From Maricaulis salignorans (GTDB taxonomy: Bacteria; Pseudomonadota; Alphaproteobacteria; Caulobacterales; Aquidulcibacteraceae), in assembly GCA_945891505.1 (NCBI GenBank), contig CAMDDL010000003.1:1-64000 (forward strand): 64,000 nucleotides of DNA, written 5' to 3'. The translations under genes and the position numbers were made by a program. Positions within the stretch are counted from its first letter, which is position 1, and the number at the start of each line of letters is the position of its first letter. Positions 24,969-29,785 of this stretch are shown in pieces. The notes below the pieces were generated by a model. That model searched no databases. It saw nothing but the letters and a program-made list of their open reading frames with translations, and was not told the origin of the DNA.

Positions 24969-26318
24969 TTAATTCCGATAAGCAGGCCGAGCGATGCCGT
25001 CTGTGCTGGGCTTATAGCGGGCAGCGAGTTCGGTGGAGCGGCTGGTCATGGGTTGAGTTTGCCCCGCGATATAGACTGCTGTGGGATAGCTTTGGCCTTC
25101 CAACGGATCGCCCGACCAGATGACCACGTCTGCAGCCTTGCCCACTTCAATCGAGCCAATCTCTTTTTCCGCACCCCAAATCTTGGCTGGATTCAAAGTG
25201 ATGGCGGCTAGTGCTGCTTGATAGGGCAGACCATGCGCGACGGCGGTACCAGCATTCATCCGGCTCTGCCGCAGATTATTGTAATCTCGGCTGCCCATGA
25301 TGGAGACTTGAACGCCTGCTTGATAAAGAACTTGGGCGTTGCGCAAATGGGTGCCCAATGTTTCAAAGCTTGCTGGCAGAGCGGCTTGGGCGTCGATGAT
25401 GACGGGCACTTTTGCCGCTGCCAATTCAGACGCTACGCGCCAACCTTCTTCAGCCCCTTCGAGAACGATGGACAGGTTTTCCTCCTTGGCGAGTTTCAAG
25501 ACTTGACGAATATCATTCGCGCTCGAAACCCGGATCAGCAAGGGCGACTTGCCCTGTACCACTGGCACCAAGGCTTCCAGATCAAGGCGGCTGACCATCA
25601 ATTCGCGTCCCTCTCCTTTGTCATAGAGGGCGCGATTAGCGGCAAAATGGCGCACGTCTGCCAAGACGCGCTTTAAAATGATCAAAGAGGCGCCGCGAGA
25701 GCCACCTACCGCTGCAGCCGCAGATTCCCCAAATTCCAACACCATGCCAGCATTGGTTTTGAAGATCAGGTCGGGTGTATTTGCAGAAAGACGTATGCCA
25801 ATGCTTTGACCTGCAAACAAGGTTGGATCGTCTTGCTCGTGCCCGCCAGCGGTTTGGAAGGCGCTATCGTCATGGGCGTGGGCCCCATTGCCTGAGCGGC
25901 CGGCGACCGGGGTTAGGAATGCCCGCGTCACACCATTAAGGCGGGCAAGCGCAATTGTCGTCGCATCGGGATTGACGCCTGCGGCGGGGTTAAATGCAGC
26001 CCCAATCTGGCCCCCTGCCCCATCATCACGTGTAGACGGCACTTGTTCAATCTCGGAAATGCCTAAGCTTGTGGTGGCAGCCACCAAACCAGGAGTCACC
26101 ACGGCACCTTTTGCATCGATGATTTGCGCGCCTATGGGGATCGCAACCGATGGGCCAACGGCGACAATCTTGCCGTTGTCCATGACCAAAGTAGCAGATG
26201 CCAGCGTGCCGGTGGAGCTCACAGTTTCGATCTTTGCATTGATGATCGCGATGGGGTCAGCGCTTGCAAGTGTGGGGGCGGAAACGGCCAAAGCGAGAGC
26301 TAGAGCAACAGGTTTCAT
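24969..26318 (-). CDS. Exported amidohydrolase-family protein lacking the HxH metal motif
   Basis: 449 residues with a clear signal peptide (MKPVALALALAVSAPTLASA). The composite-domain start (PIAIINAKIETV, DNGKIVAVGPSVAIP, DAKGAVVTPGLVAA) and end (NPAKIWGAEKEIGSIEVGKA, DVVIWSGDP) are those of imidazolonepropionase-like amidohydrolases. But at the first strand, where HxH should follow TPGLVA, the sequence reads ATTSLGISEIEQ, so the usual metal ligands are missing. Catalysis may be lost or altered. It starts in a TAATG overlap with the intact amidohydrolase upstream, so the two are co-translated and may form a pair. The substrate is unknown; related enzymes are dipeptidases or prolidases. Confidence 0.85.
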   Translation of the reverse strand: MKPVALALALAVSAPTLASADPIAIINAKIETVSSTGTLASATLVMDNGKIVAVGPSVAIPIGAQIIDAKGAVVTPGLVAATTSLGISEIEQVPSTRDDGAGGQIGAAFNPAAGVNPDATTIALARLNGVTRAFLTPVAGRSGNGAHAHDDSAFQTAGGHEQDDPTLFAGQSIGIRLSANTPDLIFKTNAGMVLEFGESAAAAVGGSRGASLIILKRVLADVRHFAANRALYDKGEGRELMVSRLDLEALVPVVQGKSPLLIRVSSANDIRQVLKLAKEENLSIVLEGAEEGWRVASELAAAKVPVIIDAQAALPASFETLGTHLRNAQVLYQAGVQVSIMGSRDYNNLRQSRMNAGTAVAHGLPYQAALAAITLNPAKIWGAEKEIGSIEVGKAADVVIWSGDPLEGQSYPTAVYIAGQTQPMTSRSTELAARYKPSTDGIARPAYRN

Positions 26319-27808
26319 TATTTTTGCTCCAAGCTGGGGCGACCAAGGTCAAAATCTGACCGGGCATGTGTGGCCAGGTCGTTACGGTCGTAAGCGATGC
26401 CGCCGTCGACATAAACGGTTTGGGCAAGGGCGAAGGTCGAAAAGGGATCACGATCCCATAGGACTATATCGGCCATTTTGCCAATTTCCAAAGTCCCAGT
26501 CTTTGCCCCAATGCCCATAGCGCGAGCTGGGTTTGCGGTGATCCATTTGATGGCATCCAAGCGGGACACAGGAATACCTGCGCGGGCTGCTGCCCCCATG
26601 GCTAAGGCTGCTTCTTGATTGAGATGTTGAGTCATGGTGGCATCGTCTGAGTGGATGATGGTGCAGGCACCATGGGCCTGCAGGATACCGGCGTTTTCGG
26701 CGATCCCGTCGAGGGATTCCATTTTAAAGCCCTGCCAATCGGCCCAAGTCGCCGCGCAGATGTCAGCTTCTTTTAAGACTGGTGCGAGTTTATAAGCTTC
26801 TGACGAATGGTGGAATGTCGTGATTTTATAGCCAAACTCCTTCGCCATATCCATCATGAGAGCCATTTCATCGGCGCGATAACAATGGTTTTGAACAAGG
26901 ATATCGCCGTTGAGCACGCCCGACAGCGTTTCCAGCTTTAAGTCGCGCTTAGGCGGGTCACCTGCTGTTTCTCCTGCAGCGACTTTGGCCCGATAGTCGT
27001 TCCACTTGCGATTATAGTCGGCCGCATCAATCCACGCGCGCCGCGCAACCGCAATATTGCCCATGCGGGTCGAAGGGGAACGTGAGCGTGAACCGTAAAC
27101 GCGCTTCGGGTTCTCACCACATGCCATTTTAAGGCCGTATGGCGCGCCCGGAAACTTCATGCCTTGCTGGGTGATAGCTGGCACATTCTTGACCGTCACC
27201 GAGCGGCCGCCAAACAAATTGGCTGAGCCTGGCAGGATCATCAAACTGGTGATGCCGCCTTCTCGCGCCCGATTAAAGCCGGGGTCCTGTGGCCAGATCG
27301 AATGTTCAGCCCAGACTTCAGCCGTGTTCGGATCGGTGGCTTCATTCCCATCGGAATTGGCTTGCACGCCGGGACTTGGGTAGACGCCCAAGTGCGAGTG
27401 AATATCGATAATGCCAGGAGTAACAAACTTGCCCCGGCCGTCGACGCGCTTTGCCCCGTCTGGGATCGCGACATCTTTGCCAACCGCGACAATCTTGCCT
27501 TCGGAGAACAAGATGATGCCATTTTCAATTTCCTGGCCGGCAGCTGTCAGGATTGTGGCCCCAACGATCGCGGTCGCAACACTGGGTAACGGCTTATAGG
27601 TGGAGGGGAATGGATCGAGTGCACCATTGCTGTCCATGCCCTTCGCTAAGGGTTTAGGCGTGGCCTTGGGCTTGGCGACAGGCTCAGAGCTTACCGTCTC
27701 GGTCGTTTGAGCGGTGGAGGTTGTCGCGCACCCCGCTACCAATGTGACGGATAAAGCCAGCGCGATCGCTGAAGCATATAGAATTGAGTGGCGCAGAAAC
27801 ACGAGCAT
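26318..27808 (-). CDS. Amidohydrolase-family lipoprotein with intact metal site
   Basis: About 496 residues. The N terminus is a lipoprotein signal with lipobox LVAGC (Cys 27), so it is probably tethered in the periplasm. Metal ligands look intact: GIIDIHSHLGVYPSP (HxH), NHCYRADE, TFHHSSEAYK and IHSDDATMTQHLNQEA. The end has NPARAMGIGAKTGTLEIGKM, ADIVLWDRDP. I use the ATG at 27808 because it puts the signal peptide at the N terminus; a GTG at 27865 is in frame further up. A 16-bp palindrome lies 35 bases upstream. First of a two-gene unit with the HxH-less paralogue. Peptide or cyclic-amide hydrolysis is a guess. Confidence 0.85.
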   Translation of the reverse strand: MLVFLRHSILYASAIALALSVTLVAGCATTSTAQTTETVSSEPVAKPKATPKPLAKGMDSNGALDPFPSTYKPLPSVATAIVGATILTAAGQEIENGIILFSEGKIVAVGKDVAIPDGAKRVDGRGKFVTPGIIDIHSHLGVYPSPGVQANSDGNEATDPNTAEVWAEHSIWPQDPGFNRAREGGITSLMILPGSANLFGGRSVTVKNVPAITQQGMKFPGAPYGLKMACGENPKRVYGSRSRSPSTRMGNIAVARRAWIDAADYNRKWNDYRAKVAAGETAGDPPKRDLKLETLSGVLNGDILVQNHCYRADEMALMMDMAKEFGYKITTFHHSSEAYKLAPVLKEADICAATWADWQGFKMESLDGIAENAGILQAHGACTIIHSDDATMTQHLNQEAALAMGAAARAGIPVSRLDAIKWITANPARAMGIGAKTGTLEIGKMADIVLWDRDPFSTFALAQTVYVDGGIAYDRNDLATHARSDFDLGRPSLEQK

Positions 27809-27858: not shown

Positions 27859-27955
27859 TTTGCACAAGAGCGAGCCAAGCACTTTCGCAGTGTGATCATG
27901 CTCCTATCTGCGTGGCGACCTTGACCTTCGCCCGAACCGCAGACACTTGCCACGG

Positions 27956-29785
27956 ATGAGCCGAGATATTGTCATCCAACTCAAAGATATTGCGTTGAAG
28001 CGCGGGGGTGCGCCTGTGTTTTCTGGGGTGGATCTTACGCTGCGCCGTGGTGAGCGGGCTGCCCTGGTCGGAGCCAATGGAGCAGGCAAATCGACGCTTA
28101 TGTCAGTTTTAGCGGGCCAGCTTGAGTATGATTCTGGAGAGCGGGTGATTTCAAACGGCACCCATGCAGCGACTCAGACCCAAGAACCTGACTTCAGCGG
28201 TGCGACAAGTTTGCTTAAGTGGGCGGCACAAGACGTACCCCATGATCGGGATGAGGCCGCACGCTTGGCCGCAGCGGCCGCTGAACTTCACAGTTTTGGT
28301 CTGTCCCCAGACCGCCTCGTTACAGGGATGTCGGGCGGGGAAGCACGCCGCGCATCCCTTGCACGCGCTTTAGCTGCAGACCCCGACTTGCTGATGTTGG
28401 ATGAGCCTACCAACCACCTCGACATTGCCGCTATTGAAGAACTTGAACGCCGATTGAAACAATTTTCAGGCGCAGTGCTGGTGGTCAGCCACGACCGTGC
28501 TTTTCTGTCTGGCATTTCTACGTCGTGCTTGTGGCTGCGCAATGGTGTGGTTCGACGCCTAGATGCACCCTTTTCGAAATTTGAGCCTTGGGCGGCGAGC
28601 ATCGAAGAACAAGACCGCAAAGCATTGGAAAAGCTGGATAAAACGCTCGAGGATGAGGCCCGTTGGCTGGCACGCGGCGTGACAGCAAGGCGCACGCGCA
28701 ATGAAGGTCGCTTGCGCCGTTTGATGGACATGCGCGAAGCCCGTAAAGGGCAAGCGGCCTTAGTGCGCAAAGACACGGCTGCCCTACAGGCCGACACAGG
28801 AGGCACTTCAGGTAAATTGGTTTTTGAAGCTAAGGGCGTCTCAAAAGGCTTCGACGGACGCGGCGAAATCATCAAGAACCTAGATCTACGTGTCGTCCGG
28901 GGCGACCGCTTGGGCATTGTCGGGCCCAATGGCGTGGGTAAGTCTACTCTGATCAAAATGCTGGTAGGAAGCTTAGGGCCTGATACCGGGACAACCCGTA
29001 TGGGCAAGAATCTGACGATCGCTTATGTCGACCAATCGCGCGCCGCCCTCGACCCCAAGGCCACTTTGTGGGACACCTTTGCCCCGGCTGGCGGCGATCA
29101 AATCATGGTGCGCGAACGGCCCAAACATGTCGCGGCCTATGCCAAAGACTTTTTATTCGACAGCCGTCACTTGCGCCAACCAGTTGGTTCTTTCAGCGGT
29201 GGAGAGCGCAACCGGGTGCTCTTAGCCCTAGCACTGGCAAAGCCGTCAAACGTCCTTGTCTTGGACGAACCTACCAACGACCTCGACATGGAAACTTTGG
29301 ACGTTCTTGAAGATATGCTGGCCGAGTATGACGGCACGGTTCTCTTGGTGAGCCATGATCGCGCCTTTCTCGACGGCGTTGTGACAGCAACCTTGGCACC
29401 GCGCGGTGACGGCACCTGGCTAGAAACGCCAGGCGGCTGGACCGATCTTATGCGTCAGGGCATTCCCATTCTTGGCCATCAACAGACGTCGAAGACGAGA
29501 ACAAGCGCTGTACCAAGCGCTCAGCCTATTGCAAAGGCAGCAAAGAAACTCTCGTACAAAGATGAGCGCCGATTGGGCGAATTAGAAGCGCTGATCCCAA
29601 ATCTGGAGAACCAAATCGCGCAGTTGGAGGATATCTTAAATGACCCCAGTCTTTACAGTAGCGATCCAGCCCGCTTTGAAAAGACATCGTCACAAGCTGT
29701 GCAAGCCCGCGCGCAGCTACAAACCAGTGAAGACGAATGGCTAACCCTGCTCGAACTCAAAGAATCCCTGTCAGGAAACGCATAA
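27956..29785 (+). CDS. uup: ABC-F family ATPase, Uup-like
   Basis: 609 residues, with two ABC ATPase domains in one chain and no membrane part. First domain: Walker A LVGANGAGKSTLMSVLAG, signature MSGGEARRASLARALA, Walker B LLMLDEPTNHLDI. Second domain: GIVGPNGVGKSTLIKMLVG, FSGGERNRVLLALALA, VLVLDEPTNDLDM. A linker with many charges lies between, and a C-terminal coiled coil (about 520-609, KLSYKDERRLGELEALIPNL) is the Uup-type DNA-binding tail. ABC-F proteins act on ribosomes; Uup is also tied to transposon excision and branched DNA. ATG at 27956 follows a TTG that could also serve. It is divergent from the amidohydrolases. Confidence 0.9.
   Translation: MSRDIVIQLKDIALKRGGAPVFSGVDLTLRRGERAALVGANGAGKSTLMSVLAGQLEYDSGERVISNGTHAATQTQEPDFSGATSLLKWAAQDVPHDRDEAARLAAAAAELHSFGLSPDRLVTGMSGGEARRASLARALAADPDLLMLDEPTNHLDIAAIEELERRLKQFSGAVLVVSHDRAFLSGISTSCLWLRNGVVRRLDAPFSKFEPWAASIEEQDRKALEKLDKTLEDEARWLARGVTARRTRNEGRLRRLMDMREARKGQAALVRKDTAALQADTGGTSGKLVFEAKGVSKGFDGRGEIIKNLDLRVVRGDRLGIVGPNGVGKSTLIKMLVGSLGPDTGTTRMGKNLTIAYVDQSRAALDPKATLWDTFAPAGGDQIMVRERPKHVAAYAKDFLFDSRHLRQPVGSFSGGERNRVLLALALAKPSNVLVLDEPTNDLDMETLDVLEDMLAEYDGTVLLVSHDRAFLDGVVTATLAPRGDGTWLETPGGWTDLMRQGIPILGHQQTSKTRTSAVPSAQPIAKAAKKLSYKDERRLGELEALIPNLENQIAQLEDILNDPSLYSSDPARFEKTSSQAVQARAQLQTSEDEWLTLLELKESLSGNA

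Follow-up and report, generated by a model that had tools for sequence, protein, structure and literature searches.

In a 64,000-nucleotide (nt) stretch of Maricaulis salignorans DNA (GenBank assembly GCA_945891505.1, contig CAMDDL010000003.1, positions 1 to 64,000; hereafter the window), two genes for exported amidohydrolase-like proteins lie one behind the other on the minus strand. We refer to the upstream gene and its product as A and to the downstream one as B. An earlier note on this DNA had described two amidohydrolase open reading frames (ORFs) overlapping by TAATG, the first a lipoprotein that keeps HSH and the later His/Asp motifs and the second lacking the metal-binding HxH, and each of these observations was confirmed. 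A comprises 496 amino acids (aa), starts with ATG at 27808 and carries a lipobox-like VAGC at Cys27 (pattern search; "lipobox" denotes a pattern match throughout). B comprises 449 aa, starts with ATG at 26318 and has an Ala-rich, signal-like start, as judged by eye from the sequence. The A stop and B start have one base in common, and a GGAG lies 8 nt ahead of the B start codon, inside A. The two proteins are homologous, with 26% identity across 427 columns, and ATTSLG of B aligns to IHSHLG of A. The closest named records are from Aquidulcibacter and Hyphomonadaceae, and their B proteins are 93-95% identical to that of the window, which places it in the Caulobacterales. The nearest solved relative of both A and B is PDB entry 3ooq, a Thermotoga maritima amidohydrolase. 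The canonical metal ligands of the 3ooq-like amidohydrolase branch are HxH on barrel strand 1, His on strands 5 and 6, and Asp on strand 8, abbreviated here as HHHHD. The features of the locus, with the evidence for each, are:

26318..27808, minus strand: A (P0002), exported amidohydrolase with a full metal-ligand set, probably lipid-anchored (ORF; lipobox pattern VAGC27; 3ooq, E 1.3e-64; HHHHD)
24969..26318, minus strand: B (P0001), exported amidohydrolase homologue with no canonical metal ligand (ORF; 3ooq, E 3e-32; fold model; TSRGS)
26318..26330, minus strand: coupling junction, GGAG (26327-26330) within the end of A, then the TAATG overlap (sequence; junction survey)
27392..27400, minus strand: HSH of A (H137-S138-H139), strand-1 metal motif (alignment)
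26885..26887, minus strand: H308 of A, strand-5 ligand (alignment; invariant across live rows)
26807..26809, minus strand: H334 of A, strand-6 ligand (alignment; Gly in 90% of 41 B rows)
26645..26647, minus strand: D388 of A, strand-8 catalytic aspartate position (alignment)
26067..26075, minus strand: T82-T83-S84 of B, where HxH is expected (alignment)
25530..25532, minus strand: R263 of B, replacing the strand-5 His (alignment)
25455..25457, minus strand: G288 of B, replacing the strand-6 His (alignment; Gly in 65 of 68 B sequences)
25290..25292, minus strand: S343 of B, replacing the strand-8 Asp (alignment)

Alignment placed the ligands H137, H139, H308, H334 and D388 of A opposite T82, S84, R263, G288 and S343 of B (HHHHD to TSRGS). 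The earlier note was right about the loss of HxH but understated its extent, as all five canonical ligands are gone from B. The signature was then compared among homologues in an alignment whose rows were hand-picked for diversity. In addition to A and B, these rows included X, a ligand-less domain fused ahead of A, and BX, the B protein adjoining X-A fusions; a single protein stands both as a B row and as a BX row. HHHHD was present in all 43 live rows (25/25 A, 14/14 fused A domains and 4/4 solo homologues) and in none of the 55 dead rows (0/31 B, 0/10 BX and 0/14 X), which retain at most two of the five ligands. A larger, unselected set consisted of 83 A and 68 B sequences, counted as non-identical strings, some of which stem from one gene and differ in truncation or trimming. 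All 83 A sequences hold the five ligands wherever the position is covered, with a gap at HxH in 10 to 14 of them, mostly at cut-off loci. The second HxH His occurs in 0 of 68 B sequences and the first in 1 of 68; the strand-6 His is replaced by Gly in 65, and the remaining lost positions vary freely. With its complete ligand set A is probably a working enzyme, and B, to judge from its residues, is a homologue and not a catalytic member of the amidohydrolase superfamily.

The earlier note had also raised the prospect of an alternative metal site in the second protein. None was seen in B, where the best His/Cys column reached 54% of 41 B rows; live rows, for comparison, have four His/Cys columns at 100% of 43. 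A His/Asp-rich loop in the B protein of the window (residues 147-164) was considered as a family-wide site and rejected, being absent from a number of B proteins. It is largely common to near relatives and falls in a low-confidence stretch of the model (143-161). Conserved acids do remain in B, and those at the E291 and E319 positions are kept by both proteins. Conserved residues specific to B are E89, N116, R126, P315, R350, R427 and Y435, and its conserved polar residues also include D98, E291 and D404.

B retains the fold of the family (beta-sandwich plus TIM barrel) as judged by both structure and profile comparisons. An AlphaFold2 model of B had a predicted local distance difference test score (pLDDT) of 86.1 and a predicted template modelling score (pTM) of 0.86. 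Foldseek comparison of this model returned 3ooq as the best match, with template modelling (TM) scores of 0.75 for the query (TMq) and 0.87-0.88 for the target (TMt) over 407-412 alignment columns including gaps; among the 50 matches listed, no other PDB entry exceeded TMt 0.59. Pfam Amidohydro_1 and Amidohydro_3 (PF01979 and PF07969) score above their cut-offs against the C-terminal portion of B, in keeping with the family ends that the earlier note had ascribed to it. HutI imidazolonepropionase and other NCBIfam equivalogs belong to the same superfamily and have the same end motifs, but within the 25 top families listed per protein A and B scored far under the curated cut-offs. For imidazolonepropionase (TIGR01224, cut-off 298 bits) the scores were 49.6 bits for A and 45.9 for B; for the Xaa-Pro dipeptidase of Caulobacter type (NF051886, cut-off 500 bits) they were 58.5 and 39 bits. 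Imidazolonepropionase structures matched the B model with TM scores of only 0.43-0.50.

The occurrence of the two genes was assessed by A-profile and B-profile searches of 200 genomes of the order and 299 genomes of the phylum (Pseudomonadota). Only the best candidates were scored (8 per genome in the order, 5 in the phylum), and absence is stated at those settings. A and B were each found in 170 of the 200 genomes of the order, and the two sets were identical. A was found in 36 of the 299 genomes of the phylum, and the same 36, as read by eye from the two lists, match the B profile; since A also matches that profile, the presence of B in this sample rests on the fetched loci, in all 36 of which B directly follows A. 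Ten genomes are common to both samples, giving 196 distinct genomes with the system and none with A or B alone. A single-sequence search with P0001 (E 1e-6) matched 172 of the 200 genomes, the two extra ones lying under the profile thresholds. At 141 of 141 places in the order sample where both profile matches were recorded, the two genes shared a strand and A immediately preceded B. The same arrangement was found in the rest of the 170 genomes (17 further genomes, one designated G172 and the last 11, whose pairs were read by eye). At one locus (L115) A is fragmentary, lying at the start of the contig and about 250 bases ahead of B, and at another (L121) the end of the contig truncates B. Ten genomes had one A and two B-profile matches, and the second match was A in each. 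The co-occurrence that the earlier note had proposed to look for was without exception in both samples, and a B standing alone, which it had held would speak against its proposal, was never found in the genomes searched.

Of 121 distinct junctions, 106 overlap, 67 by 4 bases and 39 by 1. The B start in this survey was taken as the in-frame ATG, GTG or TTG nearest the A stop between -40 and +90, a rule that favours overlaps, and one further junction had no start in that range. Five B-like ORFs were unpaired in the survey: two are frame-extension artefacts with A present (L055, L056), one lies at a contig edge (L020), one is a broken piece from Hymenobacter (L102) and one belongs to another family (L109). 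Twelve genomes have paralogues, and in these each of the 28 B copies (28/28, pairs read by eye) has its own A. A third, longer amidohydrolase-like ORF of 594 aa follows some paralogous pairs (L040:701-2485, L042:3600-5384).

A fused form was found in some Gammaproteobacteria, where A is the C-terminal half of a protein of about 1000-1050 aa. The N-terminal half, X, is a ligand-less amidohydrolase domain, and B still follows. Among 197 genomes from a single gammaproteobacterial order, 20 had the X-A fusion, 19 of them with the whole gene and 1 with a gene truncated where the locus ends, and B came next in 20/20. A model of the fusion (pLDDT 73.1, pTM 0.69) had a beta-rich segment between the two barrels and 3ooq as its best PDB match; on a rough reading, this pTM is higher than would be expected were the two barrels not mutually placed. 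X has two strongly conserved His columns, at 0.93 and 1.00 across 14 rows, and an invariant His-Trp in the fusion alignment (L135:1501-4500 plus 20 further fusions), and it may harbour its own site. A plasmid of Hymenobacter volaticus (Bacteroidota) carries X, A and B in order, split over several frames (L102:4290-8490), which reflects either sequencing errors or decay.

Nine plasmid records were matched, comprising 2 pairs (L103, L104), 4 solo homologues (L105-L108), the broken X-A-B locus and two weak partial matches (L109, L184) that were not classed with the A/B family. The solo homologues, a small sample from a plasmid collection, are carried by large replicons in Acetoanaerobium, Cytobacillus, Nonomuraea and Monoglobus (Bacillota, Actinomycetota). 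All have the five ligands, and no second member was present in the fetched sequence of about 5 kb on either side. They score nearly alike with the B and A profiles (for example, 297 versus 328 bits), as expected of relatives of the common ancestor. A quick tree of 98 rows, with 14 of the 21 fusions, separated the live rows (SH-aLRT, Shimodaira-Hasegawa-like approximate likelihood ratio test, 85) from a side that holds the X and BX rows together with 30 of the 31 B rows. This topology allows a single origin of the dead lineage, a point on which we make no firm claim.

B is under purifying selection. Among nine close genomes, the median ratio of nonsynonymous to synonymous substitution rates (dN/dS, Nei-Gojobori) was 0.041 for B and 0.054 for A. 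These medians take in only comparisons with dS between 0.05 and 1.5, which left 21 of 36 for B and 23 of 36 for A. Because of this selection, and because the signature is absent from all 55 B and B-like rows, the loss of ligands is not local decay. A mirror-tree argument was set aside, because the correlation between A and B distances (r 0.79, 19 loci) is accounted for by species history and linkage.

The exceptionless co-occurrence, fixed order, start/stop overlap, co-duplication and purifying selection on B strongly support the conclusion that the active/degenerate pair is maintained as a unit. The earlier note had suggested that such a pair forms either a heteromeric enzyme or a regulatory pseudoenzyme; this is supported in part, the conserved live/dead pair on these same grounds, with both readings of it as candidates. 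We consider it probable that A and B are two subunits of one exported hydrolase, with a live A and an obligate dead B. A single protein assembly is proposed because the pair is fixed with overlapping frames, the dead member is under selection, the two genes are duplicated together, and a dead domain is found fused in cis to a live one. Lipid-tethered A would hold the only metal centre and do the chemistry. B would be a conserved pseudoenzyme of the 3ooq-like subfamily that has lost metal binding, most likely standing in for half of an ancestral homo-oligomer, and would keep A in the active assembly, shape the substrate entrance, or both. Overlapping translation would provide the subunits in matched amounts ahead of export. 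Where an X-A fusion is followed by B, the assembly would contain two dead domains and depend on a single live one. The activity of A, its contact with B, their stoichiometry, the role of B and the substrate are what we infer in this proposal.

Several observations weigh against a two-subunit hydrolase. Linkage and coupling would suit two proteins of one pathway as well, and contact between A and B is deduced from gene pairing. B's own conserved polar residues may indicate a role beyond scaffolding, in binding or other catalysis. Across families B is less conserved than A, with mean identities of 39% and 56%, respectively (19 loci). B also changed faster than A toward two of the close relatives, the more distant ones; between the window and L023, for example, dN was 0.166 for B and 0.092 for A. 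Because B diverges faster than A, an A/B interface is not obvious from sequence. The tree has a long B branch (B_L095) beside the live side and one open fork. Lastly, the system is dispensable, as 30 of the 200 genomes in the order sample had neither gene at the search thresholds.

B may instead be a regulator, decoy or binding protein of A, whose barrel mouth, retained or rebuilt, binds substrate or product and hands it to A or inhibits A, without a stable oligomer. We regard this as unlikely, though it is the foremost of the alternatives. It would account for the polar residues that B conserves on its own just past the first barrel strand (E89 0.88, or 0.95 as D/E; D98 1.00 as D/E; N116 0.90; R126 0.93), and a lipobox pattern common in A (17/25) and rare in B (3/31) would suit a mobile partner. 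However, 1:1 gene copies and overlapping frames fit a fixed stoichiometry better, and X-A fusions place a dead barrel in cis with A.

A metal-free or displaced active site in B, acting as a second step on the product of A, seems improbable. In its favour are the strong purifying selection on B, the near-constant strand-6 Gly (65/68) and the acids shared with A (E291, E319), which show a pocket that is not simply decaying. Yet B has no conserved His/Cys constellation, its best column reaching 54%, and its residues differ freely from protein to protein at the former HxH, strand-5 and strand-8 sites. We know of no amidohydrolase that functions without any of these ligands.

There is only a slight chance, in our estimation, that A and B are independent secreted proteins of one pathway, linked in an operon, of which B lost catalysis for reasons of its own. 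An A:B complex is a prediction here, and neighbouring genes differ between lineages, so that the operon adds little information. However, no split was found in 196 genomes, all 28 copies in the 12 paralogue genomes are paired, and the X-A fusion joins a dead domain to A. Finally, an artefact or pseudogene, that is, a duplicate decaying in this genome, would explain the loss of every catalytic ligand but can be rejected given the open frame, the median dN/dS of 0.041 and the same loss kept across two proteobacterial classes.

The two-subunit hydrolase that we favour was compared with known systems. 3ooq is the closest solved relative of both proteins and by far the best fold match of the B model. 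It differs in that its crystal holds one live protein type (10 chains, one sequence), and B has none of its metal ligands. The records of 3ooq state no function, and no paper naming it was found in the literature searched. The M16 peptidases, whose fold is unrelated to that of amidohydrolases, offer a parallel in arrangement. M16B peptidases (mitochondrial processing peptidase (MPP) beta/alpha and prokaryotic homologues) are reported to consist of homologous live and dead subunits, the zinc-less alpha being essential to MPP, and in M16A/C the live and dead halves lie in a single chain of about 1000 residues (PMC11266112). Live and dead homologues are likewise encoded side by side here, and X-A resembles the M16A/C fusion; the M16 motif described there is HXXEH, and for B the pairing is established whereas the need for B is a proposal. 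Similarly, Pseudomonas aeruginosa aspartate transcarbamoylase (ATCase) is reported to need a catalytically dead dihydroorotase homologue (PMC7053772). This is also a dead amidohydrolase-superfamily protein tied to a partner enzyme, but as described there its live partner is an unrelated transcarbamoylase, whereas the partner here is the live homologue A and the pair is exported. Our best reading is that the A/B pair would work like M16B and pseudo-dihydroorotase/ATCase without belonging to either family.

No description of the A/B pair was found in the literature searched. As a tentative extension, the pair could represent a class of exported heteromeric amidohydrolases that is ancient and not yet described and that arose when a homo-oligomer turned, once, into an obligate live:dead assembly. 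Its architectures would be A:B and X-A:B (two dead per live), with dead subunits lining the substrate chamber as a counterpart of the M16 clamshell. If the two-subunit explanation is true, the family, whose solo, paired and fused members can all be compared, offers a natural experiment in the passage from a homo-oligomeric metalloenzyme to an obligate live/dead heteromer, and A expressed alone in function screens may yield a false negative. In addition, databases label both members "amidohydrolase" (names in one annotated plasmid), and genomes may be credited with two enzymes where there is probably one.

Neighbouring genes were clustered across 65 loci as a possible guide to function, and this was rejected as too little for a claim about substrate. 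Apart from genes shared by close relatives of the window, clusters occurred in only 3 to 6 loci: as identified by eye, a DEAD-box helicase in 6 loci, a topoisomerase subunit in 5 and DNA polymerase III alpha in 4, besides some clusters of 3. In 3 of the 65 loci (L097:2289-4067, L103:4183-5781 and L094) the gene immediately preceding the pair encodes a POT/PTR2 peptide transporter, identified by Pfam in L097 and L103 and by similarity only in L094; L103 is from Sphingomonadales. This transporter is a weak hint of a peptide substrate, and the substrate is perhaps a peptide-like amide.

Within the window, a CobT-type VWA protein (PF11775/PF06213; 23022-24947, plus strand) is convergent with the pair and clusters only in near relatives of the window among the 65 loci. 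On the other side, divergent from the pair and 138 bp from the A start, a gene at 27947-29785 (plus strand) encodes a protein with two ABC_tran matches and ABC_tran_CTD, which we read as an ABC-F-like ATPase.

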